A stretch of DNA of 51,977 nt from Candidatus Kapaibacterium sp. GTDB taxonomy: Bacteria; Bacteroidota; Ignavibacteria; Kapaibacteriales; UBA2268. The translations under genes were made by a program, and so were the position numbers. This document shows, piece after piece, positions 6,081-50,041 of this stretch (position 1 is the stretch's first letter; each line of letters starts with the position of its first letter). Below the pieces are notes generated by a model. The model made no database searches. It worked only from the letters and a program-made list of their open reading frames with translations, and was not told the DNA's origin. The DNA is taken from assembly GCA_026418625.1 (NCBI GenBank), contig JAOABA010000040.1, forward strand, positions 1 through 51,977, given 5' to 3'.

Positions 6081-6938
6081 CTATAATCTCTTGGAATACT
6101 CTTCGAGGTAATTTAATTCTTCTTGTGTCAATGATTTTTTGCCTTCATTATTGATTTTATCGAGGATTTGATTGAGCCTGTCCTCAGAAAAATAATCAGT
6201 ATCAAATTCATTGAAATGACTCTTTTCAGACTGTCCAGCTTGATGTTTCCTTTCAGGCTTTGAAATTTCAGCCGGCATCAGATCTTCATCCGAAGGGACA
6301 GACATTTTTGGCTTAACTGGATTTATCAAAACTTGAAATAGTCTGTAGAATTTAATAAATAAATCAACAATTAGCCCCAATGATATACCATAAATCAATG
6401 AAAAAGCTGAAGGGGTCAATAAATCAGTATCCACAAATTTCGAATGGAGATAAACAGTAACAACCCAGCTAATAGAAATAAGAATTATAAAAGCGTTAAT
6501 ATGGAATGACTTTGGATTTAATTTTATTTGCTTTAAATTTAAATTATTCAGTATAAAATAGGTTATGATGAAGAACGAAATTCCGTCTGTTCCCTTGAGA
6601 ATTATATCGCTTTGGTTAAAAATTGATGTAAAAAGCAATCCTTGAAATAAAATAATGCCAAACAATAATAAAATCATTGTAGGTTTTCTGAATTTTACTT
6701 CAAAGAACGGGAAAAGCAGTAAAATCGTAAATAAAAATAGTAATGCTGATTCAATAGTAAAAAATGAAAAAGGATAAGTAATTACCCTGTATAATTCATT
6801 TAATCCCAGAGCCTTAGACGGAATTAGCCCGAAATCCTGAGAAATCTTGAAATTAAGCAGAACATCAACTAAGTAGAAAGATCCAATCAAGATAATAATA
6901 AAGTGATTTAAGATTTTTATGTTCTTTATTTTTTTCAT
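6081..6938 (-). CDS. Rhomboid-fold membrane protein lacking the catalytic residues
   Basis: The 285-residue protein has about six membrane segments (residues 12-200) and a soluble tail. The N-terminal layout (hydrophobic helix, LYRVITYPFSF, then a helix pair) matches rhomboid proteases of this phylum. The tail EDRLNQILDKINNEGKKSLT..E matches the short C-terminal domain that follows rhomboids there. The catalytic GxSG is GTDG (residues 116-119), with Asp where the Ser should be, and the TM6 His position appears to be Leu181. It is therefore probably a pseudoprotease that binds membrane substrates without cutting them. It lies 53 bp after the 6992-9379 lipoprotein gene. Confidence 0.6.
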   Translation of the reverse strand: MKKIKNIKILNHFIIILIGSFYLVDVLLNFKISQDFGLIPSKALGLNELYRVITYPFSFFTIESALLFLFTILLLFPFFEVKFRKPTMILLLFGIILFQGLLFTSIFNQSDIILKGTDGISFFIITYFILNNLNLKQIKLNPKSFHINAFIILISISWVVTVYLHSKFVDTDLLTPSAFSLIYGISLGLIVDLFIKFYRLFQVLINPVKPKMSVPSDEDLMPAEISKPERKHQAGQSEKSHFNEFDTDYFSEDRLNQILDKINNEGKKSLTQEELNYLEEYSKRL

Positions 6939-6991
6939 TTAAATAAATTTTTACTTTCTACATATATAATAACACTTGAAATAGCAAAACG

Positions 6992-36980: not shown

Positions 36981-38984
36981 CTATCTTTGGACAATAACTT
37001 TACGGTAGAATTTTCTTCCACTGATGTTAAACTCCAGTAAATAAAAACCATTACTGAAATTGGATAAGTCAATGATATATTGATGGTTGCCCGGTAAATA
37101 ATAATTTGAGTAATTATATAGGGTGCTCCCCGGCAGATTTAATAATCTGATAGAAATATTAGTAGGATTTGTGATATAAAACTCGAGTTTAATTCTATCA
37201 TCTGCTGGGTTGGGATAAACACTTAGCTGATAATAGCTTTCATCATCTTCAACACTTTCGATATCGAACCAATATGGATCGGACATTGCCGTAACGCAAC
37301 CGTTGCTATCAATAGCTTGAACAGTATAAAAACCTGTTTCGACTGGTGTAATAATAGAGTCGGTAGCTCCCTCAATTTTTTTACCATCGAGATACCATTG
37401 ATTACCAGTTGGATAACTCGATACGAGATCCATAAGTCTTCTTGAAATTATTGGACCGGGTGGTATTTCAATAGAGATTTCTTTGACAAGGGTATCACAA
37501 CATCCTGTTACAGTATTGCATTGAACTAAGGTTATATATCCTTTACCAACTTGCCCCCAAACCACAACAAGACTGTCATTTTGTAGCCCTCCAACAGGGG
37601 TTCCACCGGTTACCTGCCATCTTGTTGAATGGCCTTTTTCTTTATTGTAATAAGTAGTTCTTAGAGTGGGACAAACAGTAGTTTTACCGAAAATTTCAAC
37701 CTCAGGAGAGGGCAAAATAGTAATTGTTTCATCCGATTCTTCGCTGTCCATCATAGGACTGCTCGCCCTGACTCTAATTTTATAGCCGTTTCCGGGAGGT
37801 AGTGACCTCGGTAATTTTCCAGTAACAACACCGGGAGTGGTGCTTTTCAAATTACCTATAAGGTAAGGATTGTCAAAATTTCCTTCGGCATCCGATAATT
37901 CAACTCTGAAGTTATTATTCGAATCATAAATGATAGATGATGTAAAAGTGACAGAAATTTCTTGACCAGCGCAATATGAACCACCAGCAATAACTTTGAA
38001 GTCAACTTCTCTTCCTCTGAAAACACCATCGCCCCAAGTTCCAGCGAGTAAGTCACCATTTGGATGTTGAACAATGTTAAGTAATTGAATGTTTGATAAG
38101 CCACCGTTTATTTGCTTCCAGGTTTGCCCGTTATCTGTCGAACGATAAGCCCCCCTGCCAAAAGTCGCAGCAAAGAGTTCATCATTTTGAGCTTTTAACA
38201 AAGCAAAAATCTGTTCAGAATCTTTTAATTCTGAAGCTAATCTCCAAGATCCCCCATTTGAAGTAGAGCTATAAATTTTTGAATTACGTGAGCCAATGAG
38301 AATGAGGTTTTTATTCACAAAAACGAGCGAATAGATATTTTTTTGTTCTGGAAGTCCTTGATTGATTGCTCGCCAGGAATTTCCATTATCACGTGAAAAA
38401 TACATTCCGCTATATGTGCAGGCAAAAAGCTCCCCTTCACTGCTAATTGCTATATTATTGATCGAAATATTTTCAATTCCGTTGTTTCTTTCTTCCCAAC
38501 TTTGTCCGCTCGTGGTTGATCTGTAAACAGTGCTGTAAACATCTGTTGCAATATACAAATGACCGTTCGGATTGATAGAAACAGCCACTATGTATGGACT
38601 TTGTAAACCTTCATTAATTTCAGACCAAGATTGCCCATTATCTTTGCTGACAAACATACCGCCTCCGTTTGTCCCGGCAAAAATATCACCATTAGCTCTG
38701 GCAGCCATTGCATTTACAGTTAAATTGGTTAAGCCTTTATTAACCTGTTCCCAAGTATTTCCATTGTCTGATGAACGATAAATGCCTTCTTTCTGAATAG
38801 CAGCGAAGATTTCACCTGTTGGTTTAGTTATGAGGGCTGTTACTTTTCCCTTTAAATTTCCTACTTTTTGCCAATATATTGTCTTTGATTCTGCGGAAAA
38901 ATTATTTATAAAAATCAGTATAGTGACAAATAATAATAATCTGATTAAATAAGTGCATTTAATGGAGTAGTTATTTAATTTCAT
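36981..38984 (-). CDS. T9SS-sorted protein with Ycf48/BNR-type propeller repeats
   Basis: The ATG at 38984 (667 residues) is used because GAGG lies six bases before it. A signal peptide is followed by 7-8 repeats of about 42 residues with the pattern SxDNGxxWxxINxGLxN, as in photosystem II assembly factor (Ycf48)/sortilin-like propellers. Two Ig-like domains come next (about 330-580). The last 80 residues are a type A T9SS sorting domain (SVYPNPADDRIKLEF to FYRKVIVQR). It should be carried to the cell surface. It is divergent from the module A sigma gene and has its own copy of the shared promoter motif at 39055-39083. Confidence 0.8.
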   Translation of the reverse strand: MKLNNYSIKCTYLIRLLLFVTILIFINNFSAESKTIYWQKVGNLKGKVTALITKPTGEIFAAIQKEGIYRSSDNGNTWEQVNKGLTNLTVNAMAARANGDIFAGTNGGGMFVSKDNGQSWSEINEGLQSPYIVAVSINPNGHLYIATDVYSTVYRSTTSGQSWEERNNGIENISINNIAISSEGELFACTYSGMYFSRDNGNSWRAINQGLPEQKNIYSLVFVNKNLILIGSRNSKIYSSTSNGGSWRLASELKDSEQIFALLKAQNDELFAATFGRGAYRSTDNGQTWKQINGGLSNIQLLNIVQHPNGDLLAGTWGDGVFRGREVDFKVIAGGSYCAGQEISVTFTSSIIYDSNNNFRVELSDAEGNFDNPYLIGNLKSTTPGVVTGKLPRSLPPGNGYKIRVRASSPMMDSEESDETITILPSPEVEIFGKTTVCPTLRTTYYNKEKGHSTRWQVTGGTPVGGLQNDSLVVVWGQVGKGYITLVQCNTVTGCCDTLVKEISIEIPPGPIISRRLMDLVSSYPTGNQWYLDGKKIEGATDSIITPVETGFYTVQAIDSNGCVTAMSDPYWFDIESVEDDESYYQLSVYPNPADDRIKLEFYITNPTNISIRLLNLPGSTLYNYSNYYLPGNHQYIIDLSNFSNGFYLLEFNISGRKFYRKVIVQR

Positions 38985-39054
38985 CAACATCCTCATATTA
39001 TTTCTCTGATTAATTTAGTAATTTTACAAAATATAAATTTAATTAACAATTAAT

Positions 39055-39083
39055 TAATAACCATTAAAATTAATATTAGTTAC
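39055..39083 (-). promoter_or_regulatory. Predicted ECF-sigma promoter of the T9SS propeller gene
   Basis: On the minus strand GTAAC (39083-39079) is followed by exactly 17 nt and GTTATTA (39061-39055). This is the same layout as three other sites (39100, 44892 and 46727). The start of transcription would be near 39048, about 65 nt before ATG. The site stands back to back with the sigma gene promoter; the two -35 elements are 16 bp apart. Confidence 0.65.
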
Positions 39084-39099
39084 AAAAAAAATCAAATTT

Positions 39100-39128
39100 C
39101 TAACATTTTTTAATTTAATGTGTTATTA
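39100..39128 (+). promoter_or_regulatory. Predicted ECF-sigma promoter of the module A sigma operon
   Basis: CTAAC (39100-39104), 17 nt, then GTTATTA (39122-39128). The downstream ATG is at 39156, giving a leader of about 20 nt. Placement before the sigma gene itself suggests autoregulation. The first base differs (C rather than G) from the other three sites. Confidence 0.6.
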
Positions 39129-39155: not shown

Positions 39156-39722
39156 ATGGATAGAAAATTATCAAAATATACTGACGAAGAGTTGTTAAGG
39201 CTGTTAAAAGGAAGTAGAAAAGAATCCGAACAAGCTTTTACAGAAATTTACGACCGTTATGCTTTGAAAGTAAATGCTTATTGTAGAACGATAATTGGAA
39301 ATAAAGATCAAGCTGAAGATATTTTTCAGGAAACTTTTATTCGGTTTTACCAGAATGTTAGGGTAGAACATCCAAAATCAACAATTATAGGTTATTTGAT
39401 AAAAATTGCAAGAAATTTGTGCCTTAATTATAAAAGGGATAAAAAACAGACTGTTTCAATTGATACGATAGATTATTCAATACCAGCTGATGTTAGTTTT
39501 GAGGATAAAGAACTTAACGACTTAATTTTGTTTGCTATTGATTTGTTGGATAATGAGACAAAAGAAGTTATTACAATGCGAGTTTTCAACGATATGTCAT
39601 ATAACGAAATAGCGGAAACTATGGATATAACACCTGCGAGAGCTCGTTATTTAGTTTTCAATGGTAAACAAAAAATTAAGCAAATATTAGATCCATATAT
39701 AAAAGACATTTATAAATATTAG
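39156..39722 (+). CDS. ECF-type RNA polymerase sigma factor (module A)
   Basis: This 188-residue sigma-70 family protein has region 2 (AFTEIYDRYALKVNAYC... DQAEDIFQETFIRFYQNV, residues 28-70) and region 4 (LLDNETKEVITMRVFNDMSY.EIAETM, about 131-175). Regions 1.1 and 3 are missing, as in ECF sigmas. It directs RNA polymerase to a small regulon. It is closely similar in layout to the module B sigma (44926), including the YTDEELL start and the final DPYIKD.YKY. The anti-sigma-type gene follows after 9 bp. A candidate self-recognised promoter lies upstream. Confidence 0.92.
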   Translation: MDRKLSKYTDEELLRLLKGSRKESEQAFTEIYDRYALKVNAYCRTIIGNKDQAEDIFQETFIRFYQNVRVEHPKSTIIGYLIKIARNLCLNYKRDKKQTVSIDTIDYSIPADVSFEDKELNDLILFAIDLLDNETKEVITMRVFNDMSYNEIAETMDITPARARYLVFNGKQKIKQILDPYIKDIYKY

Positions 39723-39731
39723 GATAAATCA

Positions 39732-40922
39732 ATGGATTATCAAATATTAATACACGACTTTGTTGATGGGACTCTTGACAAATCCCAAGAAGAGAGTCTT
39801 TTTTTAGCACTATCCTCGAGCGAGGAGCTAAGAAATGAATTACGGCAAACAATCGCTCTTGAAAAAGCTTTTGGAAAAAAGCTGAGCTCTTTTGCTCCTT
39901 CTGCAAAGTCAACCGTTGCTATCTTTTCAGGTTTGTCAATGGCAATTCCCGGAAGTGCCTCCTCTGCTGGTGTGGCTGCTTCTTCAAAAACCATTGTCTT
40001 TATTTCAAAATATATTCAGGCAATTTTTAGTAGTCTTGCAACGGCTGTTATTTTGACTGCTGTTTTTCTTGGAGTTAGTTCAAGCAATACTGATGAAAGA
40101 ATTTCTTTGCCTGTAAATTCACTTGTAAATAAAAATATTGATTTGGCTAATAATGATTTCAATATTCCAAGAATATATTCTGCTGAGGTTCCCGAAACAA
40201 TTATTAAAACTGTTTATAAACCTATACCGCAAGATAATGCTAAAAATATCTTTGCAACCGATGATAAATTAGAAATTCTATCAAATCCAATTGAAACAGA
40301 GATACCAGAATCATTAACCTTTGCAGACAGTAAAGTTTATCATACTACTATATTGTCCCGAAATGATTTTGAATTTGAATCTAAAAATCTAACATTGAAT
40401 CCTACAAATGCTCCAATGTTTTCAAATTTAGATGTGAAAAATTATGGATTAAGTCTTGAATTTCACGGAAATCAAAGCATTCTACAACAAAAAGCTGAAG
40501 TTCCCGAGTCTTCGAATCCACTTTTTAGTAACGCAGGAATAACTTTGCTCTATAATTTTAATAAAAATTTTTCTGCAGGACTAGATATTCGTCAGGAATT
40601 TATCTATCAAAGATTCGAAGGCACAGATGATGAAGGCAATCTCTACTTATACAAACAATATCCTAATTACGTGAGTATTTCTGCGGCATTCCGTTATGGA
40701 TTTGATATTAATAATTGGTTGGGGATCTATTCGCAAGTAATGGCTGGAGGAACTGTAACTGGCGGAGTTTTAAGGTCAGGTGTGGGTCTAAAATTCAGTC
40801 CTTACCCAAATTACAATTTATTGTTGGGAGTTGATGGTATGGTATTCGGTTACAAACATCAAAACAACTTTTACACAACTTCAAAATTGGGTCTTAATTT
40901 CGGCATAGGATTCAATTTTTAG
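39732..40922 (+). CDS. Anti-sigma-like protein fused to an outer-membrane-type beta-barrel (module A)
   Basis: The 396-residue protein has four visible parts. Residues 1-50 are an acidic helical domain (LIHDFVDGTLDKSQEESLF) like zinc-less anti-sigma domains. Residues 98-116 form one membrane helix. Residues 117-235 are a polar, Asn/Pro-rich linker. Residues 236-396 are about eight amphipathic strands ending in GIGFNF, the terminal Phe of outer-membrane barrels. It lacks a cleavable signal peptide, so the single helix would sit in the inner membrane and the barrel in the outer one. AGGA before ATG supports the start. It probably holds the module A sigma and releases it when the envelope changes. 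Confidence 0.68.
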   Translation: MDYQILIHDFVDGTLDKSQEESLFLALSSSEELRNELRQTIALEKAFGKKLSSFAPSAKSTVAIFSGLSMAIPGSASSAGVAASSKTIVFISKYIQAIFSSLATAVILTAVFLGVSSSNTDERISLPVNSLVNKNIDLANNDFNIPRIYSAEVPETIIKTVYKPIPQDNAKNIFATDDKLEILSNPIETEIPESLTFADSKVYHTTILSRNDFEFESKNLTLNPTNAPMFSNLDVKNYGLSLEFHGNQSILQQKAEVPESSNPLFSNAGITLLYNFNKNFSAGLDIRQEFIYQRFEGTDDEGNLYLYKQYPNYVSISAAFRYGFDINNWLGIYSQVMAGGTVTGGVLRSGVGLKFSPYPNYNLLLGVDGMVFGYKHQNNFYTTSKLGLNFGIGFNF

Positions 40923-40932
40923 GAGATTCACT

Positions 40933-41586
40933 ATGAAAATTACATTGAAAATTTTGCTTTTTTCATTATTTGTTTTTCCTTTTATTTTAATAATCCAATC
41001 CTGCGAGGACTCTCTGGGATATGATCCAAATGTCGAAATAACAAAAATAATAAAAGATACTGTAAAAATTGATCCAGAGGATCCCCAGACCAAATTTATC
41101 ACTATTGATAAATGGGATATAACATTCAAAGAGTTTTATCAAGAAGGGAGGGTTCTTAAAGATCAGAAATGGGATTTTATTATTCTTTCACACAAAATTC
41201 TTATTGATACTTCTAATCGATTTCCTAAGCTCTGGATGGAAATTGATTTTGCTAATAATTTACCTGATACTGATTACAAAAACAGACATGACAGGGTTTT
41301 GAACTATAGAATTAAATTAGCTGCGGAATTATATACTGAAACAATCTATAATTTAAATGAAAAGATAAATGAAAGACGTTGGTCTGAAATTACTATGAGA
41401 GATCTAAGGCGAGCAGGTGGAGTGAACTTTATAATTCCCGGCATCGAATCGAGATCCCAAATAATACTTGAGGAAATAAATTTAAGAGCGGGTTATTTGA
41501 ATTTCATCGTATCAAATGATTTTGTTAAATATCCCTATCTTAATACCAGATATTTCAGAGGGAATATCAAGCTGTATTTTAAGTAG
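40933..41586 (+). CDS. Lipoprotein of the sigma/anti-sigma module A
   Basis: The 217-residue protein has a lipoprotein signal (MKITLKILLFSLF...IQSC). No database family is recognised, but it is related to the product of 46788-47468: IDTSNRFPKLWM here matches VDTSKDIPLIWM there, at a similar distance from the N-terminus, followed in both by charged NNK/NRH turns and Ile-rich strands. It is the third gene of the module, 10 bp after the barrel protein, with AGGAG before its ATG. It may be a partner or plug of the barrel in the outer membrane. Confidence 0.6.
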   Translation: MKITLKILLFSLFVFPFILIIQSCEDSLGYDPNVEITKIIKDTVKIDPEDPQTKFITIDKWDITFKEFYQEGRVLKDQKWDFIILSHKILIDTSNRFPKLWMEIDFANNLPDTDYKNRHDRVLNYRIKLAAELYTETIYNLNEKINERRWSEITMRDLRRAGGVNFIIPGIESRSQIILEEINLRAGYLNFIVSNDFVKYPYLNTRYFRGNIKLYFK

Positions 41587-42193
41587 AGATTTATTATAAC
41601 ATATCCTTCAAACAAAATTTTTCATTGTGCAAATGTTGAATTAAGCTAAGTCGAATCAAAGTTTTAAAAACATTTTGCATCCACTTCTTTATCTCTGCGT
41701 TCTCTGCGTGAAACTCTTTTTTATTTCTCGCAGAGTTCGCAAAGAATTACGCAAAGATCGCAGAGATTTTTTCCTCGATCTAATAAAAAACTTAAATTTC
41801 AAATTTTTGTTGTTTGATAGCAAAAATTAATTAAAGCCATAATGGATACTTTCCAACTTTGTTTGTGAGAATGACCACAAAATATAATAATTTTAAAATT
41901 CACTTCGAATTTTTAGAATAATTTTGTTACAGCTTTGCGTCCTCTGCTTTACCTCTGCGTTCTCTGCGTGAAACTCTTTTTATTTCTCGCAAAGTTCGCA
42001 AAGATTTATGCAAAGATCGCAGAGATTTTTTCCTCGATCTATTAAAAAACTTTTGTAAAATTTCAAATTTTTGTTGTTTGATGGTAAAAATTCTTTAGAA
42101 TCATAATGTATTCTTCCAAACTTCGTTTGTGTGAATGACCCGAAAATTGTTTTATTTCAATTGTTAATTTCAAATTTTTTATGATAATTTAGA
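41587..42193. other. 607-bp gene-free interval with a tandem palindromic repeat
   Basis: It contains no plausible gene. Two copies of a roughly 210-bp element fill most of it, offset by 260 bp. The interval separates module A from a convergent esterase-type gene. It contains no clear promoter for a plus-strand gene. Confidence 0.7.
41668..42140. repeat. Two direct copies (41668-41880, 41928-42140) of a dispersed hairpin repeat
   Basis: Both copies contain CTCTGCGTTCTCTGCGTGAA, TATTTCTCGCA.AGTTCGCAAAG, CGCAGAGATTTTTTCCTCGA and TTTCAAATTTTTGTTGTTTG in the same order, then drift. The offset is 260 bp. CTCTGCG and CGCAGAG blocks inside each copy pair to a long stem. A third, inverted and shorter copy is at 5393-5487. 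It is non-coding. Confidence 0.8.
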
Positions 42194-43081
42194 TTATATT
42201 AGAGATAACTTGAAGAAAGAAACTAATTTAATGATAACATCATTTAATTGTGAGTCGTCAAAACTATGAAAAGCTAAATATTCATAATATTCGCTCCTTA
42301 CTCCTAATTTTTTCAATTTTTCATAAAACCATTGACTTTGATAGACGGGAACAATTGGGTCCAAGCTGCCGTGAAAAATTATGGTTGGTGGAGAAGAAGA
42401 ATTAACATTCCAATAGGGGCTAACGGAATTATATACTAAAGTATCAAATGGAACACCAATATACTCAGTTAATATATCACCTATTTTAGCCCCCAACCAA
42501 ATATTGTAACTATTATACCATGACCAGTCGCTTAGGATGCTTGGACCAAAAATGTTTGCAACACATTTTATGTTTCTATTATATTTATAAGCATAAATCA
42601 TAGCTAATTGTCCGCCTGCACTTACCCCTAAAACAGCAATTTTTGAAGAAATATTATACTTTTTCTTGTTTGAAATAATATTGTTTACTACATTATCTAT
42701 GTCAGCGATTATTTCATTATGATGAATCTTATCAGAATTGCTTGCCAATCTGTAATTCATATTAACAATAGCAACATCATTCCATTTTTTTTGAATTAGA
42801 TTTATTAAAGAATTTAAATCTTCTTTTTGTCCCGATTTCCAAGCCCCACCGTGAATCGTTATTATAACCGGTGTCAAGCTATCTCTATTTTTTGGCAGGT
42901 ATAAGTCATAAACCTGCCTTGTGTGACTTCCGGTAGGAATATTAAATATGATAGTGTCAACAATTGAGGCTAGATCATTTTTTTGATCTTTAATATTATT
43001 TATTTCATTCTTACAAGAAAGAAGAATTCCAACGAAAACAGTTGTAAGAAGAGCATACCTAAAAAACTTTTCAACTATCAT
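42194..43081 (-). CDS. Alpha/beta-hydrolase (esterase/lipase-like) lipoprotein
   Basis: The 295-residue protein has a lipoprotein signal (ILLSC, Cys23). The catalytic set is visible: the oxyanion-hole HGGAWKSGQ (about residue 79), the nucleophile elbow GVSAGGQ, the acid HGSLDPIVP and the late His in LAFHSFDD. The motif set is that of the carboxylesterase/BD-FAE class (HGGAW), often found on ester-bearing polymers or small esters. It is a single gene running against module A and divergent from the Nudix gene. Confidence 0.85.
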   Translation of the reverse strand: MIVEKFFRYALLTTVFVGILLSCKNEINNIKDQKNDLASIVDTIIFNIPTGSHTRQVYDLYLPKNRDSLTPVIITIHGGAWKSGQKEDLNSLINLIQKKWNDVAIVNMNYRLASNSDKIHHNEIIADIDNVVNNIISNKKKYNISSKIAVLGVSAGGQLAMIYAYKYNRNIKCVANIFGPSILSDWSWYNSYNIWLGAKIGDILTEYIGVPFDTLVYNSVSPYWNVNSSSPPTIIFHGSLDPIVPVYQSQWFYEKLKKLGVRSEYYEYLAFHSFDDSQLNDVIIKLVSFFKLSLI

Positions 43082-43322
43082 ATTACTATATTAAAAAAAG
43101 AGTTAAGTAAATAATTGAAATAATCGAATATAATTAATTGATATTTTTTTAAATTAATTTCAATTTTCAATCATCTCAATAAAACTAATATTTTTTTTTA
43201 ATGTTCTTTTAAAAATAGAGCATTAAGTTTAGGAAATACAATAATTACATCTGAGATGAAAAATATTTTATCAAATTTATCAATTTCTTGAGACCTTTTT
43301 ACGTTTTAAGTGTTTAATAGAA

Positions 43323-43877
43323 ATGTGCGAACAAGTTTTAAAAAAGATGTTAAAAAAATTAGAACATATTAATAGCGAAATAGTTTTCAGCAATAACTGG
43401 TGGCAATACGCAAAGGATATTTATTTAATGCCAAACGGAGAAAAAGGTGAGTATCATTATGTTCATTCCAAAGGTTCTACTTTTGTCATCCCAAAAACTG
43501 AGGATAATTATTACATTATGATAAAACAGTATCGCTATCTCAATAGAAAGTTTAGCATTGAATTTCCCGGTGGCGGACTTAAGGAAGGAAGAAAACCTAT
43601 TCTAAATGCTTTAGATGAAATGAAAGAAGAAGCTGGTTATGTTTCGGACAAAGTAAGCGAACTTGGAACTTTCAACCCATTTAATGGGGTTACTGATGAG
43701 ATTTGCTATGTTTTTCTTGCTGAAGATTGCAAATTTATTGGAAATAAACCAGATTTGTCTGAAGAATTCGAAATTTTAAAATTTACAGAAAACGAAATTA
43801 TTGATTTTATTAAAAAAGGAGAAATATGGGACGGAATGACATTAGCTGCTTGGTCTCTTTATTATTTCAAAAAATGA
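43323..43877 (+). CDS. Nudix hydrolase with a charge-swapped Nudix box
   Basis: The 184-residue protein looks like the ADP-ribose pyrophosphatase branch: KQYRYLNRKFSIEFPGGG before the box, and GTFNPFNGVTDE after it. In the box, the metal ligands Glu99, Glu102 and Glu103 remain, but the first Glu is Arg90 and the usual Arg is Asp98, which would keep a reversed salt bridge. The substrate is probably a nucleoside diphosphate sugar. Its stop overlaps the next start (ATGA), so the two are coupled. Met9 is a possible alternative start. Confidence 0.78.
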   Translation: MCEQVLKKMLKKLEHINSEIVFSNNWWQYAKDIYLMPNGEKGEYHYVHSKGSTFVIPKTEDNYYIMIKQYRYLNRKFSIEFPGGGLKEGRKPILNALDEMKEEAGYVSDKVSELGTFNPFNGVTDEICYVFLAEDCKFIGNKPDLSEEFEILKFTENEIIDFIKKGEIWDGMTLAAWSLYYFKK

Positions 43878-44869
43878 AAAGATTACAGTTTGACTTGTTT
43901 TTTTCAGCTGTTCTATTAATTACTTTATTTTTGGGCATCAAAACAGATGTATTTTCTCAAGATGGAGCAAAAAAAGCTGAAGAGCCACCAGCATATCAGC
44001 TTAAATTTATACCTCCACAAACAATCAGGCACGTATATAAGATGCACGATTCAACAGTTGTTACAAGAATTTTTAGCGACAACAGCACAAAAAAATACAC
44101 CCGTGAAGTTTGGTATTATTTTAATTTTGTTATGCCAAATCCCCCTAAGGAAGGGTTTATGACTTTTGAAGTTTCGATTGATTCATTGAAGTATAAATTT
44201 ACTGAAGGGGAGGCAGTTTTTGAGTTTGATTCTCAGGCTGATAATCCCGGTGCATTAACCTTTGAAGACCTTGTTGCAACAATTGTTCCTCTTGGTAATG
44301 AATTTAATTTGACTTATTCTCCTTATGGAGAGGTTGCAAAAATTGATGGAGAACGTTACGAATTTATGAAAGATTTCATCAGACAACAAAAAAGTAATCC
44401 AATGAGTGATGCAATAATGAATTTTGTTTGGGAAGAAGGTATATCTCTCGATAGGTTGAAATTTCTTGCAGATGTTAAAAAGATATATTTTACCCCTGAA
44501 CCCATTGAGATTGATACACTTTGGGAAACCCCAATAGAATTTCAACTTGATCATATCAATTTTTTTGATACTTTAACTGCAAAGATTACAAAATTTAAAG
44601 ATGGTTATTTTCATATAGACGCAGTCTCGAACAATATTCAGGCAAAAAACAAACCTGCAAAATTATATGGCATAAAAACTCAATTAATTGAAGTTGCTGA
44701 CGCTAAGGGTAATGGCGAATACCATCTTGTCCTTCATAATAGAGGATTTGTATCCAAAGCAGAGCTAAAATATAATGTTGAAATAGGGTCTTATATTAAG
44801 AAAGAATATTTCAAACAAAAAATTGAAACAAAAACAACTTGGGAATTATTAAAACAATTTAAGTTTTAA
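43874..44869 (+). CDS. Secreted protein of unknown function
   Basis: The ATG at 43874 (331 residues) overlaps the Nudix stop and starts a signal peptide (MKRLQFDLFFSAVLL). The frame opens 16 codons earlier inside the Nudix gene. The mature protein is mostly beta (YQLKFIPPQTIRHVYKM, then long alternating strands), with two halves that look like a lipocalin- or LolA-type curved sheet, but no family can be named. It lies just upstream of the module B sigma gene; only 56 bp separate them. Confidence 0.5.
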   Translation: MKRLQFDLFFSAVLLITLFLGIKTDVFSQDGAKKAEEPPAYQLKFIPPQTIRHVYKMHDSTVVTRIFSDNSTKKYTREVWYYFNFVMPNPPKEGFMTFEVSIDSLKYKFTEGEAVFEFDSQADNPGALTFEDLVATIVPLGNEFNLTYSPYGEVAKIDGERYEFMKDFIRQQKSNPMSDAIMNFVWEEGISLDRLKFLADVKKIYFTPEPIEIDTLWETPIEFQLDHINFFDTLTAKITKFKDGYFHIDAVSNNIQAKNKPAKLYGIKTQLIEVADAKGNGEYHLVLHNRGFVSKAELKYNVEIGSYIKKEYFKQKIETKTTWELLKQFKF

Positions 44870-44891
44870 AAATAAAAAATTTATTTTCTTT

Positions 44892-44920
44892 GTAACTTAT
44901 TTAAATTTTAAATGTTATTA
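44892..44920 (+). promoter_or_regulatory. Predicted ECF-sigma promoter of the module B sigma operon
   Basis: GTAAC (44892-44896), 17 nt, GTTATTA (44914-44920). The 14-mer TTTGTAACTTATTT around the -35 is exactly repeated at 46724-46737. The ATG of the sigma gene is at 44926, so the transcript would start almost at the initiation codon, predicting a leaderless or very short-leader mRNA. Confidence 0.6.
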
Positions 44921-44925
44921 CAACG

Positions 44926-45486
44926 ATGAAGAGTGACTTCGAGCAATATGATGATGTTGAGCTTTTCTATTTGATGAAGTCGGGTAGCGGGCATTCGGAG
45001 GAAGCTTTTAGAATATTATATAACAGATATTCAGCAAGGATATATTCATATTGCCGAAAGTTTTTGGGAAACAAAGAAGAAGCGAGGGATGTTTTTCAGG
45101 AAGCATTTGTCAGGTTTTATCAAAGCGCCCAAGAAGAAAGGGAAATGACAAATGTTCCAGCTTTTTTACTTAAGATTGCAAGAAATCTATGTGTTAATCT
45201 AAAAAGGAAAGACACCTCGGCGTTGACGTTTGAAGATTATATGTCTTCAACTTATGAGAGAAGTGATAATGATGAGTTATTAAACTTGATTAAGACAGGA
45301 ATGGAATTATTACCGCCAGAGTATAAGGAACTTTTTATTTTAAGAGAGTATGAGGGATTAACTTATAACGAAATAGTCAATGTAACTGGGTTACCACTTG
45401 CAACGGTCAAAATTAGACTGTTCAGAGCAAGACAAAAGTTAAGAGAAATTTTAGCGCCATATTTGGCTGATTTATCAAAATATTAA
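44926..45486 (+). CDS. ECF-type RNA polymerase sigma factor (module B)
   Basis: The 186-residue sigma factor is paralogous to the product of 39156. Region 2 is AFRILYNRYSARIYSYCRKFLGNK.EARDVFQEAF (residues 27-61 by motif), and region 4 is LLPPEYKELFILREYEGLTYNEIV...LATVKIRLFRARQKL. The N-terminus (YDDVELFYLMK) and the C-terminus (APYLADLSKY) align with module A. The downstream barrel-type anti-sigma gene follows after 28 bp. No Shine-Dalgarno is visible, in keeping with a predicted leaderless transcript. Confidence 0.92.
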   Translation: MKSDFEQYDDVELFYLMKSGSGHSEEAFRILYNRYSARIYSYCRKFLGNKEEARDVFQEAFVRFYQSAQEEREMTNVPAFLLKIARNLCVNLKRKDTSALTFEDYMSSTYERSDNDELLNLIKTGMELLPPEYKELFILREYEGLTYNEIVNVTGLPLATVKIRLFRARQKLREILAPYLADLSKY

Positions 45487-45514
45487 TGTATAATTATTTG
45501 ATTGCAGAGTAGTT

Positions 45515-46723
45515 ATGAATGAATCAAGTTTTCAAAGTCCTTCTGAACTTCTTCATCTTTTTTTAGATGGAGAACTTGAAGCTGGGAAAGAGACATTTTT
45601 ATTTTCTGAACTTGCTTCGAATGAAGAATTACGAAGCGAGATGAGAGATTTAATGTTAATTCGCAACAAGATTAAAGCGGATTCTGCTCCTATTGCACCA
45701 CCTTTGGAAACAACAGCATCAGTCTTTAGTTCTTTGGGCTTTAACCCTACATTGCTTAATCCAAATGCTGTTGCACCATTTTCTGGTATTGTTCTTTCTA
45801 CTCTGAAAAAGCTATGGGCACCAATTACCACAGCAATTGTAGCCTCTTTGATAACTTATTTTGCAATCAATAATAATCTTGACTATTTGTCTACTCAATG
45901 TCATTTACCTATGATGGTTTCCTATTCCATTGAACCATTAACTCAAGATATTGCAAAAAATAATCCTAAAGAAAAAATAATTTATAAATATTTTGATAAT
46001 TCTTCTTATAACAATCTTGCTAACAATAATATTTATGCTAAAGAGAACCAATCTCAATTTGATTCAAAATCAAATGTGAATAATACAGATTTAATTAATT
46101 TTGTCAAAATGGATGAAATCCAAAATAATTCAGCATTTACACTTGCTGAGGGTAAAACTAAATATAATCAAATCAATTTAGGAAAAAATTCATTAAGTCT
46201 TAATCAACCAAAAGTATTAAAAAATCAAGACAATGAATATTCTTTGCAACTTAGAGGAATAAACGGGATATCTTTTCCGTCCGTTCAAGTTCCTTACAAG
46301 CAGAATACAGTATTCTCAAATATGAGTGCTGCCTTCTATTTTGCTCGTTTCGGAAATTTCAGGATTGGCTTTGAATTTGGCAATGAGCCTTTCGGTCAGG
46401 TCTTCAACAATAACGAAGGTGGAACTGAATGGCAATACACTCAAAATGCTGCAATTTACTGGGCTGGTCTTGATATTATGTATATTTTCGATAAAGAATT
46501 TTTATTCAATGGAGGTCCTAAACCTTTTGTTCAAGCAACACTTGGAGGAACTGAACTTGGTCCCATAGGCAAATTTATTACGGGTTTGCAATATTTCTCG
46601 AAAGAGACTGGTATTGGTGCAATGATTGGTTTGGAGGGAACAGTTCTTTCTTATATCAACCAAAAAGTATGGTATAATACGAAGAAAATAGGCTTTACTT
46701 ATGGAATGTCATTTCATTTTTAG
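45515..46723 (+). CDS. Anti-sigma-like protein fused to an outer-membrane-type beta-barrel (module B)
   Basis: The 402-residue protein repeats the module A design: acidic helical domain (about 8-52, ELLHLFLDGELEAGKETFLF), the conserved APPLETTASVFSSLGF (60-75, matching APSAKSTVAIFSGLSM in module A), one membrane helix (100-118), an Asn-rich linker (119-240), and about eight strands ending in TYGMSFHF. Sequence identity between the barrels is low, so the two may sense different signals. It should span both membranes and bind the module B sigma. A non-sensor outer-membrane protein with a spurious N-terminus is the less likely alternative. Confidence 0.68.
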   Translation: MNESSFQSPSELLHLFLDGELEAGKETFLFSELASNEELRSEMRDLMLIRNKIKADSAPIAPPLETTASVFSSLGFNPTLLNPNAVAPFSGIVLSTLKKLWAPITTAIVASLITYFAINNNLDYLSTQCHLPMMVSYSIEPLTQDIAKNNPKEKIIYKYFDNSSYNNLANNNIYAKENQSQFDSKSNVNNTDLINFVKMDEIQNNSAFTLAEGKTKYNQINLGKNSLSLNQPKVLKNQDNEYSLQLRGINGISFPSVQVPYKQNTVFSNMSAAFYFARFGNFRIGFEFGNEPFGQVFNNNEGGTEWQYTQNAAIYWAGLDIMYIFDKEFLFNGGPKPFVQATLGGTELGPIGKFITGLQYFSKETGIGAMIGLEGTVLSYINQKVWYNTKKIGFTYGMSFHF

Positions 46724-46726
46724 TTT

Positions 46727-46752
46727 GTAACTTATTTGTCAGTTGAGTGTTA
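46727..46752 (+). promoter_or_regulatory. Predicted ECF-sigma promoter of the module B lipoprotein/T9SS unit
   Basis: GTAAC (46727-46731), 17 nt, GTTA (46749-46752). It begins immediately after the barrel gene stop (46723) and predicts a start of transcription near 46759, about 29 nt before the lipoprotein ATG at 46788. It would give the lipoprotein and the T9SS protein extra expression when the sigma is free. Confidence 0.55.
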
Positions 46753-46787
46753 ATGTATTTGTAAAAAATGTAAGATGGAAAATTAGA

Positions 46788-47468
46788 ATGGACAGATTTA
46801 ATTTAATATTTATTTTTCTTATATCACTTCTGCTTTGGTCTTGTTCTTCTCCAATGGATTTGGACACACCAAAGGAGAAAAGATTGGTTGGTAATCCCCC
46901 TGCAAAAGTATTCCCTAAAATCAATACAATTTTGCTTGAAGAAAATGGAATAGCAAGAGAGTTTGTTGCTAAGGATTATTCCATCGCAGTGGATACATCC
47001 AAAGATATACCTTTGATTTGGATGAATTTTTTACTTGACTCTTATGATAATAAAAAAAGCACTGAAAGAATTAGTATAAATAACATTAATTTTCGAATAG
47101 ATTCTACTCAATTAACAGGACAGCCAATAAAGATAGTTCCAAATATTATTAATCCAACTTGCTGGGCTAAATACACAATAAATCGTGGATTAAATATCCA
47201 GTCTGACACCACAATTAATTCAGGTGATTCAAAAAATATCACCGAATTATCTTTTAGTTATAACAAATCAAGAAAAGAAATCTGGGCATACATTTATTCT
47301 AAAATTTATGACCACAAAGTCTGGAAAGAACAAAAGGATACAGTGGTTTACGATACTACTTGGGTTGGTGGTGTTCCCAACATCAAGGAAATAAGATTGA
47401 GACTCGAAGAAATAAGGACAAAGCAAGATTCTTTATTTTTGAACACTAAGTTACTTTTGAAATATTAA
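46788..47468 (+). CDS. Lipoprotein of the sigma/anti-sigma module B
   Basis: The ATG at 46788 (226 residues) is preferred: GGAAAA lies upstream and it begins a lipoprotein signal (MDRFNLIFIFLISLLLWSC). An earlier TTG at 46743 would lie inside the predicted promoter. It shares VDTSKDIPLIWM and the following pattern with the module A lipoprotein, so they form one family at low identity. A trio of strands around KDTVVYDTTWVGGVPNIKE is seen in B only. It is encoded between the barrel protein and the T9SS protein and probably meets one or both at the outer membrane. Confidence 0.6.
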   Translation: MDRFNLIFIFLISLLLWSCSSPMDLDTPKEKRLVGNPPAKVFPKINTILLEENGIAREFVAKDYSIAVDTSKDIPLIWMNFLLDSYDNKKSTERISINNINFRIDSTQLTGQPIKIVPNIINPTCWAKYTINRGLNIQSDTTINSGDSKNITELSFSYNKSRKEIWAYIYSKIYDHKVWKEQKDTVVYDTTWVGGVPNIKEIRLRLEEIRTKQDSLFLNTKLLLKY

Positions 47469-47500: not shown

Positions 47501-50041
47501 ATGAAATTCAAAGTTGTTCTCGTTCTCTTATTTTCTTTTTTATTTTTATATGAAAATTCATTAGCTTTAGAAGCTCCGAAGCCCCCTCTTAAATTTACTG
47601 GATATGTTCAAGATAATAACCAAAACAATGCAAATTCAGTTTATTTCAAGTGGATGAAAAATCCCGAGGGGACTCAGCCAAATTTGTTTATACTTTATAT
47701 TGCAACAGAAAACACACAAGATTTATCAAAATTTAAACGATTTGATTATATCAAAGCAGGGAATCAACTGGATTATAGTTTCGTTTTAGGTGGTCTCAAA
47801 GCAGGGCAGTATTCATTTTATTTGACTTCAGGTGCAATTGATGGAAATTACATAATCGAAAGTAGTAACTCTGATATTGTTTTTATTGAAATTAAAAACA
47901 ATGAAAAACCATTTATCAGAATTATATCCCAGCCACCAACGTATGCTGCCATCGGAAAAGAATATATATATAATGTGAAAGCTATTACAAATTTACCCGA
48001 CAATTGCCCGCTTGTTTATTCTCTTGCACAGTCACCTAAAGGAATGAAAATAGATGAAACAACTGGTATTATTAGATGGGTTCCTGAAGAAAATGGTGTT
48101 TTCAAGGTATCAATTATGGTAGGAACAACTTGCAAAATTAATGTTGAGCCTGCTTTTCAGGATTTTGCAATTACCGTTGGGCAAAATAATCAGGGTTATG
48201 TGAAAATTACAAGCCAACCTCCACACACAGCGTTTGTTGGAGAGCCTTTGATTTATCAAATCATTGCACAATCAAATATAAGATGTCCGATATTATTTGA
48301 CCTAACCAATGATGTTCCAAATGAAGTAGGATTTGATAGACAGTCTGGCTTACTAAAATGGATTCCTACAAAGCCGGGAACTTATAAATTTATTGTAAAA
48401 GCATACCTTGAATGCGACGATAAGATAAGTGATTCACAAACTTTTGTAATAGAAGTAAAAGAAGGGCATAATGATGATTTTTGTGCCTTGATTACAGGCT
48501 TTGTTGAGTTTGATAATGAAAATGTGCCCGTCAAAGAAGGTAGAGTAAATGCTTGGAGAATTGATAAAAGAACTAATGCTAATTTAACTTATTCTGCTCC
48601 AATTGCTCAAGGTAATTTTACGCTAAAAGTTCCTGCAGGTATTTATTTTTTGAATTTTGATGGACCTGAATTCTTGAACGAATGGTATAAAGATGCAATT
48701 TCGATTGACAAAGCTCAAAAACTTGAATTAAAGTGCGACGATCAGATTAAACTGAATATAACTGTGGAAAGGAAGAAACTACCGAAGACTTTCACTGTTA
48801 GCGGAAATGTGTCAAATGAATCAGGAGATAAACCCTTATTAGCATCTATTCAGTTTATTCCAATTGATTTAGATAAAAACTACAGAGATCCAAATCAACC
48901 AGTTCCTAATACTTTCACAACAAGAACTGATGAAAAAGGAAACTACAGTATAAAACTTCCTGATAATTTTATTTATCGAGCTTATGCTATACCAGTGGAC
49001 AATAATTATTATCCACAATATTATGATAAAGTGGATTCCCCATTCGAAGCAGATTTAATTGAACTAACTGGAGATATAAGCGGTATAGATTTTAGATTGA
49101 AAGAACGTCAGCAATTCAAAAATTCATTTACTGGGAAAGTTGTTTCCGATAACGATGGTAGCCCTCTTCATTCTTTAGTTTTTGCGTATTTAGTAAATCA
49201 AAACAACAATTCTAATCAAAGATTTTCAAGAATGGCAGAAACTGACAGAAGCGGTTACTTCAGATTCGAAAACCTTATACCGGGGCAATATGTTCTTCTG
49301 TCAATTCCTTACGACAGAGCTTACACTCCCGGTTACTACAAAATGGGAGAAGTAGCTACTCTCAAATGGCGAGAAGCCACAAGGATTAATGTTGGCGAAA
49401 ATATGATTGATATCATATTCGAAATAAGACATAAAAACAGAGCTGGACTTAAAGGCATCATTCAGATTGACGGTGTTGTTATTGATAATAGCGGGGTTAT
49501 TAAAAAGTCCGATAGTCCCTCAACACTTAACACTCTTGCAGGTGCTTTTGTATATGTTATTGATGAATTTGGTGAGCTTTCTGACTATACTTTCACTGAT
49601 ATTAACGGAAGATTTTATCTTAGTGAAGTCTCAGATGGAGAAAACACTCTTGTAGTTGACTATGTTGGATTCAAAACCTTTGAGCAAAAACTCATAACTG
49701 ATTATTCAGAAAATATAAGAAATAGCGGTCTTCTTGTTGCCCTCGATAACGATGAACCATTATCTAATGATGATCTTTTCGATAACAATAATATAGAAAT
49801 TGCAATTTATCCCAATCCAGTAAATAGCAATATGACTCTGAAGTTTTCTGGAAAAGCTGGAATAGCAAACATCTACATCTACGATAATTTGGGTAATCTT
49901 GTTCATTCAGCTATTTTGCAAACAACCGAGGGAATCAACATAACTAAATTAGATTTGAGGAACTTGAATCAAGGTATATATTTCTTGAGAATTGACAGAA
50001 ATAATAAACAGCAGACTACAAAGTTCACTATAATCAGATAG
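47501..50041 (+). CDS. Large T9SS-sorted surface protein with Ig-like and carboxypeptidase-regulatory-like domains
   Basis: The 846-residue protein has a signal peptide (1-22), a fibronectin-like domain (28-130), two putative Ig/cadherin-like domains of the He_PIG type (GMKIDETTGIIRWVPEENG near 178 and GFDRQSGLLKWIPTKPG near 278), three carboxypeptidase-regulatory-like domains (about 330-740, each with a TDxxGxYxxxxLP-type turn), and a type A sorting domain (IAIYPNPVNSNMTLKF to TTKFTIIR). It should be exported by the T9SS and held on the surface. GAGGTGG fixes the start. It is the last gene of module B and ends before a strong terminator. Confidence 0.82.
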   Translation: MKFKVVLVLLFSFLFLYENSLALEAPKPPLKFTGYVQDNNQNNANSVYFKWMKNPEGTQPNLFILYIATENTQDLSKFKRFDYIKAGNQLDYSFVLGGLKAGQYSFYLTSGAIDGNYIIESSNSDIVFIEIKNNEKPFIRIISQPPTYAAIGKEYIYNVKAITNLPDNCPLVYSLAQSPKGMKIDETTGIIRWVPEENGVFKVSIMVGTTCKINVEPAFQDFAITVGQNNQGYVKITSQPPHTAFVGEPLIYQIIAQSNIRCPILFDLTNDVPNEVGFDRQSGLLKWIPTKPGTYKFIVKAYLECDDKISDSQTFVIEVKEGHNDDFCALITGFVEFDNENVPVKEGRVNAWRIDKRTNANLTYSAPIAQGNFTLKVPAGIYFLNFDGPEFLNEWYKDAISIDKAQKLELKCDDQIKLNITVERKKLPKTFTVSGNVSNESGDKPLLASIQFIPIDLDKNYRDPNQPVPNTFTTRTDEKGNYSIKLPDNFIYRAYAIPVDNNYYPQYYDKVDSPFEADLIELTGDISGIDFRLKERQQFKNSFTGKVVSDNDGSPLHSLVFAYLVNQNNNSNQRFSRMAETDRSGYFRFENLIPGQYVLLSIPYDRAYTPGYYKMGEVATLKWREATRINVGENMIDIIFEIRHKNRAGLKGIIQIDGVVIDNSGVIKKSDSPSTLNTLAGAFVYVIDEFGELSDYTFTDINGRFYLSEVSDGENTLVVDYVGFKTFEQKLITDYSENIRNSGLLVALDNDEPLSNDDLFDNNNIEIAIYPNPVNSNMTLKFSGKAGIANIYIYDNLGNLVHSAILQTTEGINITKLDLRNLNQGIYFLRIDRNNKQQTTKFTIIR

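Follow-up and report, generated by a model that had tools for sequence, protein, structure and literature searches.

A window of 51,977 nucleotides from Candidatus Kapaibacterium sp. (assembly GCA_026418625.1, contig JAOABA010000040.1), part of a 150-kb contig in a genome of 3.3 Mb and 58 contigs, carries two paralogous three-gene modules at 39156-41586 and 44926-47468. Each consists of a gene for an extracytoplasmic function (ECF) sigma factor, a gene for a fusion of an anti-sigma-like domain to a barrel (hereafter the middle protein), and a lipoprotein gene. Kapaibacterium is classed within Bacteroidota (NCBI taxonomy). This order had been proposed in an initial annotation of the DNA, and all six open reading frames (ORFs) proved to be open and to lie in that order, as follows:

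39156..39722, + strand: module 1 ECF sigma factor, 188 residues (Sigma70_r2 and r4_2 above cut-off)
39732..40922, + strand: module 1 anti-sigma/tether/barrel protein, 396 residues (BLASTP 1e-21 against the module 2 copy)
40933..41586, + strand: module 1 lipoprotein, 217 residues, lipid-bearing Cys24 (lipobox)
44926..45486, + strand: module 2 ECF sigma factor, 186 residues (Sigma70_r2 and r4_2 above cut-off)
45515..46723, + strand: module 2 anti-sigma/tether/barrel protein, 402 residues (structure model)
46788..47468, + strand: module 2 lipoprotein, 226 residues, lipid-bearing Cys19 (lipobox; all-beta model, mean confidence 87)

For the module 2 lipoprotein, the ATG at 46788 is a better start than a TTG at 46743, given the promoter-like site at 46726-46753. 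Between the modules the sigma factors share 38% identity (BLASTP 2e-47), the middle proteins 23% over their full length (1e-21), and the lipoproteins a weak 24% over 149 columns (2e-4). The two motifs that had been noticed as common to both copies were seen in the alignments of the middle proteins and of the lipoproteins. An origin by chance or frameshift was rejected on the strength of the open ORFs and full-length homologues, and a defence system was rejected since a PADLOC scan of both middle proteins and both lipoproteins found no match.

Relatives of each middle protein were found in all 20 genomes searched, that of the window (the source genome) included. Gene order was tabulated in two sets of loci that partly overlap (L059 and L177, for example, are one place). 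In the first set of 60 loci, a sigma gene lies directly upstream of 58 of 61 middle genes, counting contig-end fragments, and the following gene is co-directional in 54. The second set comprises 80 named loci picked by sigma similarity, of which 76 hold a middle gene (77 copies). Here a sigma gene is upstream in 75 of the 77 copies, a figure that is partly by design since the set was chosen on the sigma; the following gene is co-directional in 68, and 56 of these 68 bear a lipobox. Lipobox and signal-peptide assignments throughout are our own heuristics. The three-gene order, which had been suggested as something to look for in related genomes, recurs in both sets, and 70 of the 77 copies are intact one-piece ORFs spanning the full profile, excluding a frameshift that separates the barrel as its own gene.

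A profile of the middle protein matched 128 of 390 genomes of the phylum, including all 34 tabulated genomes of its own order. Outside the order, most of the matches listed cover the N-terminal domain only, in short ORFs. When 20 further places were inspected (one from the own order), nine held proteins of 148-166 residues with one membrane helix, seven of them adjoining a sigma gene; five held proteins of 442-599 residues, one held a fusion to a trypsin-like protease, and one showed no match. The fusion in the form seen here therefore appears to be chiefly a trait of this order, assembled from an anti-sigma domain in wide use. The source genome carries five modules.

One other fusion and one possible further type were noted. 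At L292:2482-3579, in another genome of the phylum, the N-domain and membrane helix are joined to a trypsin-like protease (Trypsin_2, 1.3e-24), with an ECF sigma gene adjoining. At L003:3-1238 (- strand) an ECF gene of the sister clade (C52) is followed by a protein of more than 412 residues, with an anti-sigma-like start and a hydrophobic segment, that runs off the locus end; it has no Pfam match and is possibly a further fusion type.

The modules are flanked by two genes for exported proteins with type IX sorting domains:

36981..38996, - strand: 671-residue exported beta-propeller protein (BNR/sortilin-like) with a type IX C-terminal sorting domain, divergent from module 1 (PF18962, 1.9e-10; PF15902, 9.3e-19)
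47501..50041, + strand: 846-residue exported protein with Ig and carboxypeptidase-regulatory domains and a type IX sorting domain (PF18962, 2.8e-15)

The module 2 cluster runs on into the 846-residue gene. Of the named loci, 18 have a gene of more than 600 residues at that place, and in 15 of them it is a homologue. Directly before module 2, at 43826-44869 (+ strand), lies a DUF6263-like gene of 347 residues (5.7e-5, below cut-off), and in a genome of the same genus a 347-residue gene likewise precedes the module 2 counterpart.

Architecture of the middle protein and the lipoprotein

The module 2 middle protein was modelled with AlphaFold2 from a 60-row alignment of window and named-locus sequences (mean predicted local distance difference test score, pLDDT, 75.7; predicted template modelling score 0.49). 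The parts of the two proteins are:

39732..39935, + strand: module 1 predicted anti-sigma domain, about residues 1-68 (aligned with the model of module 2)
40020..40076, + strand: module 1 inner-membrane helix, residues 97-115 (hydropathy peak 2.23)
40077..40451, + strand: module 1 predicted periplasmic tether, about 125 residues
40452..40919, + strand: module 1 eight-strand barrel, residues 241-396, ending in Phe (by homology only)
45539..45736, + strand: module 2 predicted anti-sigma domain, residues 9-74 (model; RseA, RsiW and DdvA profile matches)
45785..45898, + strand: module 2 membrane-crossing helix, residues 91-128 (model)
45899..46240, + strand: module 2 predicted periplasmic tether, about 110 residues, mostly disordered (low pLDDT)
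46241..46717, + strand: module 2 eight-strand outer-membrane barrel, residues 243-401 (model; OprF, NspA, PagL and OmpA)

In the model, four helices fall within residues 9-74, with pLDDT block means of 96-98 for residues 11-50 and 66-73 for residues 51-80. A long helix follows at residues 91-128, and residues 142-237 are nearly all below pLDDT 50 (142-154 and 156-237). Residues 243-401 form eight strands in a closed barrel (block means 82-98). Superposition of this barrel gives Z 14-15 with OprF, NspA, PagL and OmpA, ahead of soluble eight-strand barrels of the streptavidin kind at about 11. By model and fold matches the module 2 copy thus has a closed eight-strand outer-membrane barrel of the OmpA/OprF type. 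As the structure model is of the module 2 copy only, the module 1 barrel rests on homology to it.

To classify the N-terminal domain, a profile was built from 28 N-domains, three of them from barrel-less proteins. Its three best PDB matches were RseA (0.0022), RsiW (0.028) and DdvA (0.58), the last no better than the unrelated cyclin H that came next (0.66). RseA_N matched 13 of the 28 members, at best with 1.6e-5; the window member scored 0.0026 and 18.7 bits, under the Pfam cut-off of 24. Profile similarity together with a helical fold ahead of one membrane helix places the domain among class I (RseA/RsiW-type) anti-sigma domains. Among 121 distinct middle proteins the tether has a median length of 139 residues (5-95% range, 106-180); the last residue is F, L, Y or W in 112 of them.

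The four-part layout first read from the letters is borne out for module 2 by the model and for module 1 by homology, and in the modelled copy both the closed barrel and the N-terminal anti-sigma-like domain are present. The structure model and the anti-sigma profile matches also agree with the proposal that a single chain could link the outer membrane to a sigma factor. We infer that the chain crosses both membranes and that its N-domain binds the sigma factor.

The third-gene lipoproteins are strongly diverged. They have in common a stretch directly after the lipid-bearing cysteine, approximately C-x-S/D-P-x-D-L/I/V-D-x-P-R/K, which in the window reads:

41002..41034, + strand: module 1 post-cysteine motif CEDSLGYDPNV
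46842..46874, + strand: module 2 post-cysteine motif CSSPMDLDTPK

In the two locus sets, 23 of 44 and 37 of 50 lipoproteins in the third-gene position conform to a loose form of this pattern, which was defined after the sequences had been seen. Among the remaining lipoprotein-like ORFs of those loci, 1 of 26 and 2 of 51 conform, and all three directly follow a third gene. In a sample of 328 ORFs from the source genome, 21 of them lipoprotein-like, the pattern fits both module lipoproteins and none of the other 19. We read the stretch as a putative docking or sorting tag for the barrel partner.

The module 1 lipoprotein has no Pfam or NCBIfam match, and a search of the PDB with a lipoprotein profile gave nothing convincing. 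The module 2 lipoprotein is modelled confidently as all-beta (mean pLDDT 87). No fold family is claimed for it, because its best PDB Z of about 8 (OmpA and OmpW, with YceI-like proteins lower) is background level for the tool. Three of 39 third genes encode a vWA domain; these vWA-domain lipoproteins (L209, L211 and L218) retain a post-cysteine stretch like that of the others.

A predicted promoter and its proposed regulon

Upstream regions of the sigma genes share a two-part element. TAAC-N16-TGTT occurs in 38 of 121 distinct sigma upstream regions, against 0.4 expected. A matrix trained on these elements detects one in 86 of the 121 (8-18 in shuffles scored with the same matrix), with a spacer of 16 in 78 of the 86 and a median position 25 bp before the sigma start. 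Elsewhere the matrix finds the element before 4 of 137 genes for anti-sigma proteins, before 14 of 122 third genes and before 74 of 641 genes of other kinds. We propose TGTAAC-N16-TGTTAT, found before many of the sigma genes, as a new predicted promoter. The window holds four such sites around the modules:

39057..39084, - strand: predicted ECF promoter of the divergent 671-residue type IX gene, TGTAAC-N16-GGTTAT (matrix score 17.8)
39099..39126, + strand: predicted autoregulatory ECF promoter of module 1, TCTAAC-N16-TGTTAT
44891..44918, + strand: predicted autoregulatory ECF promoter of module 2, TGTAAC-N16-TGTTAT
46726..46753, + strand: predicted internal ECF promoter serving the lipoprotein gene and the 846-residue type IX gene (kept in a same-genus genome)

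The 671-residue protein is accordingly a predicted member of the regulon; in the same-genus genome its site is identical (L061), and the internal module 2 site is kept (L059, score 19.4).

In the source genome, TGTAAC-N16-KGTTA has 26 sites, versus 4 for the reversed control. Within a limit of 220 bp, 24 of the 26 have an ORF of at least 60 residues, starting 8-142 bp downstream. Of these ORFs, 23 are exported by the signal-peptide heuristic, compared with 83 of 271 sample ORFs (binomial 2.6e-11; the binomial tests assume about 2700 genes, a total that we estimated); the sole exception is the module 2 sigma gene, which was entered as non-exported without applying the signal-peptide test. An ORF of this kind follows two of the four control sites, and inspection by eye showed an N-terminal signal in neither. 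PF18962 (E up to 1e-3) was found in 13 of the 24 downstream genes, nine of them over the Pfam cut-off when the whole protein was scanned. One of the 13 is PorU, the type IX sortase (NF033707, 810 bits against a cut-off of 420); it falls below the Pfam cut-off for PF18962. Also in the predicted regulon are genes for lipoproteins, Omp28 among them, for an LptA/OstA-like protein and for small secreted paralogues.

In a second genus (G005), 11 of 21 sites precede PF18962 genes, PorU again included (747 bits). With whole proteins scanned, seven of the 11 are over the Pfam cut-off and one more is at it; 14 of the 16 downstream ORFs were scanned with Pfam, the remaining two being shorter than 90 residues. 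The site is kept in both genera before PorU, a YCF48/HYDIN-like protein, an LVIVD lipoprotein and the 671-residue protein, all near-full-length pairs, and before a fifth pair of homologues with about 400 residues in common. A clear excess of sites over control was found in the source genome (G000, 26:4), G001 (18:4) and G005 (21:6). Among 19 PorU orthologues, one of them at a locus cut at its start, 7 have a site at a shuffle p of up to 0.05, where about 1 is expected. A shared predicted promoter and a predicted exported regulon are present in two genera, and the link to type IX secretion raised by the initial annotation is supported through this promoter and is larger than was seen from the window.

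Several observations weigh against this reading. The motif expression and matrix were drawn up after the sequences were seen. The shorter TAAC-N16-TGTTAT shows no excess in the source genome (20 versus 23 in the control), and for this reason only the fuller pattern was used. In G005, an ORF is lacking within 220 bp of 5 of the 21 sites, 11 of 16 downstream ORFs count as exported by the signal-peptide heuristic (including a 73-residue ORF that is probably spurious), and one site precedes an integrase. The excess is weaker in G004 (11:5), G007 (17:6, partly repeats), G010 (13:5), G009 (9:5) and G006 (9:7), is absent from G002 (2:2), G003 (3:3), G008 (3:3) and G011 (0:9), and is likewise absent from eight genomes of other families. 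A strong PorU site is present in only 6 of the 19 orthologues. In a 282-ORF sample of the source genome, a looser matrix found elements before 6 of 87 exported and 6 of 195 other ORFs (Fisher p 0.20); at a stricter threshold the numbers were 5 and 3 (p 0.11). Away from near-consensus sites the preference for exported genes is therefore not significant. Two of the five modules in the source genome have no motif directly upstream, and two of its nine other ECF genes (L003 and L013), which belong to a sister clade, also carry it. In the scheme proposed below it is the module sigmas, rather than the sister ECFs, that would use the promoter.

Further sites and cargo were recorded in passing. In the source genome, four small exported proteins (L358, L359, L360 and L362) stand under near-identical sites, three identical over 27 bases and one with a single change; they have no Pfam match and look like a duplicated family. 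At L364:2213-3938, back-to-back sites serve two divergent lipoprotein-like genes, one encoding a di-haem cytochrome c peroxidase (CCP_MauG, 6.5e-43). Within the window, a hydrophobic 285-residue protein with a DUF6576 tail (6081-6938, - strand) has a promoter-like site at 6969-6996 (- strand; score 15.5), 30 bp before its start. The 3.3-Mb genome encodes a very large type IX cargo set, with at least 150 PF18962 sorting domains, a floor given that 150 were scored of 250 candidates.

Proposed mechanism and alternative readings

Gene order and its conservation, an anti-sigma-like N-domain, and the layout and barrel of one copy were established by computation. Taken together with the predicted regulon, these data argue that each module is probably a self-contained switch from outer membrane to gene, with the sigma output directed to surface and type IX genes. 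In the held state, the RseA/RsiW-like, class I-type domain would keep the ECF sigma in the cytoplasm, and the chain would cross the inner membrane once, span the periplasm as a flexible tether of about 110-125 residues, and end in the eight-strand outer-membrane barrel. The lipoprotein probably works with the barrel, docking through its conserved post-cysteine stretch. The signal might be a disturbed barrel, lipoprotein or surface partner, or a failure of the barrel to be seated or assembled; the chain would then probably be cut or strained and the sigma freed. From TGTAAC-N16-TGTTAT promoters, the free sigma would transcribe its own operon together with genes for a set of surface proteins that the cell exports, among them type IX cargo and, in part of the genomes, the sortase PorU. 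The held state and the output have computational support; the signal, the contact and the release are inferred. The whole would act as an envelope-spanning leash that couples the state of the outer membrane or surface to the type IX secretome.

What the chain senses can be read in more than one way. The barrel itself may be what is sensed: failure of the beta-barrel assembly machinery (BAM) or of the outer membrane would expose the aromatic C-terminus of an unfolded barrel to a DegS-like protease, the anti-sigma would be cleaved, and surface proteins would be restored. RseA is controlled by DegS-like proteolysis, and the RseA-like N-domain, the F/L/Y/W ending of 112 of the 121 middle proteins and the LptA/OstA-like and Omp28 genes under the promoter all fit such a scheme. 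We consider it unlikely, if not strongly so, since it leaves the conserved lipoprotein and the 846-residue type IX neighbour unexplained and since such C-terminal ends are usual in outer-membrane barrels anyway. Those two partners are central if the barrel, capped by the lipoprotein and a type IX surface protein, instead detects a ligand or the state of secretion and relays it inward, much as PorA acts upstream of PorXY-SigP, minus the two-component relay. The neighbour's recurrence in 15 of 18 loci, the post-cysteine stretch kept in third-slot lipoproteins, some with a vWA domain, and PorU in the predicted regulon speak for a receptor of this kind; against it, most of the 77 modules in the named loci have no neighbour of the 846-residue type in the sequence seen. 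It is a possibility that we rate as somewhat less likely than not. A physical link between the membranes would be dispensed with altogether if the protein were cut constitutively into two unconnected products, a standard anti-sigma factor and a small free barrel. N-domains that stand alone in the one-helix proteins of 148-166 residues, seven of nine beside a sigma gene, are compatible with this, but the 70 of 77 intact one-ORF fusions and a tether kept at 106-180 residues in 90% of 121 proteins make it improbable.

The remaining question is one of descent. The initial annotation had likened the middle proteins to the dual membrane-spanning anti-sigma (Dma) proteins of Bacteroides. In PMC13088901, Dma proteins are described as an anti-sigma domain, a membrane helix, a disordered tether and a C-terminal barrel, with an adjoining ECF gene, and das2-dma2-BT_1557 as a three-gene Dma2 operon. 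Points of likeness are the four-part architecture, the ECF neighbour and a lipobox-bearing third gene in Dma2-type operons. For comparison, 13 Dma2-type proteins from genomes of the phylum were gathered through the neighbourhood of DUF4943 genes and a two-row profile, a set distinct from Dma1-3 of B. thetaiotaomicron. Two of three DUF4943 loci show the order sigma, Dma2-type protein, DUF4943, in agreement with das2-dma2-BT_1557; the third has no such neighbours. The DUF4943 proteins of the two loci bear a lipobox by our reading, and both loci continue with two genes that by position and our reading would correspond to BT_1556 and BT_1555.

At the sequence level the likeness did not hold. Alignment of 44 Kapabacterial with the 13 Dma2-type proteins by hhalign reached at best 18.5% probability, over the barrel only, and BLASTP of the middle protein against one Dma2-type protein found nothing. 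The two-row Dma2-type profile matched 18 of 390 genomes, none of the own order, and Kapabacterial profile matches outside the order are, among those listed, mostly N-domain only. In the sigma tree, 57 module sigmas fall in a clade of 59 (support 0.87), apart from the 12 sigmas of Dma2-type loci, which are monophyletic (support 1.0). Plain orthology to Dma was rejected on these grounds, and membership of the Dma family by descent, diverged past profile detection, appears rather doubtful even with the shared architecture and three-gene layout counted in its favour. With architecture equal, no homology found to the 13 Dma2-type proteins and sigma clades separate, the modules would act like Dma but may not share its descent. 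The lipoprotein had been put forward as a new addition to the Dma plan; the three-gene layout was already known from Dma2-type operons, and what differs is the family, which has its own motif. Homology to DUF4943 was rejected: PF16301 was found in 3 of 395 genomes of the phylum and was unmatched in the source genome, and the module 2 lipoprotein aligned with one DUF4943 protein over 15 signal-peptide residues only (E 0.081). Two further differences from Dma are the RseA/RsiW-like N-domain and a predicted regulon of exported and type IX proteins, where Dma targets are nigD1 or polysaccharide utilization loci.

We therefore entertain, somewhat short of even confidence, a stronger version of the switch: a separately evolved chain from outer membrane to RNA polymerase, made of an RseA-like domain, an OmpA-like barrel and a docking lipoprotein, that sets transcription of the type IX secretome (cargo, the PorU sortase and lipoproteins) and would let Kapabacteria read outer-membrane or type IX state. 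If this holds, the dual-membrane anti-sigma design either had more than one origin or goes back much further and is much more widespread than the Bacteroides cases, and a testable output is at hand in the promoter and its list of surface proteins.

Relation to known systems

The N-domain profile relates the middle protein to RseA, RsiW and DdvA, anti-sigma factors that are not known to carry an outer-membrane barrel. In TonB-dependent cell-surface signalling such as FecA-FecR-FecI, a barrel in the outer membrane reaches its ECF sigma by way of an anti-sigma in the inner membrane; barrel and anti-sigma are two proteins there and one chain here, and the barrel here has eight strands and is no TonB receptor. 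In the open-licence PMC literature, we found no report linking anti-sigma factors with Kapabacteria; "dual membrane-spanning" meets type IX secretion only within a reference list, and Kapabacteria together with type IX secretion turned up only work on lignocellulose consortia.

As regards output, PorXY-SigP with PorA comes closest among known systems. In PMC7712824, the Porphyromonas gingivalis model has SigP raising its own gene and type IX genes, with PorA, a surface C-terminal-domain protein, upstream of the signal; loss of PorA lowers porU expression. The predicted Kapabacterial regulon resembles that of SigP in having an ECF sigma, self-activation and type IX genes including porU, as judged from predicted promoters. 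The two differ in the path of the signal, a histidine kinase and response regulator relay in Porphyromonas and one two-membrane chain as proposed here. The same paper states that some factor between surface PorA and the inner-membrane PorY is necessary. If our proposal is true, the Kapabacterial chain would be a direct answer, in another lineage, to this gap between a surface protein and an inner-membrane regulator of type IX secretion.

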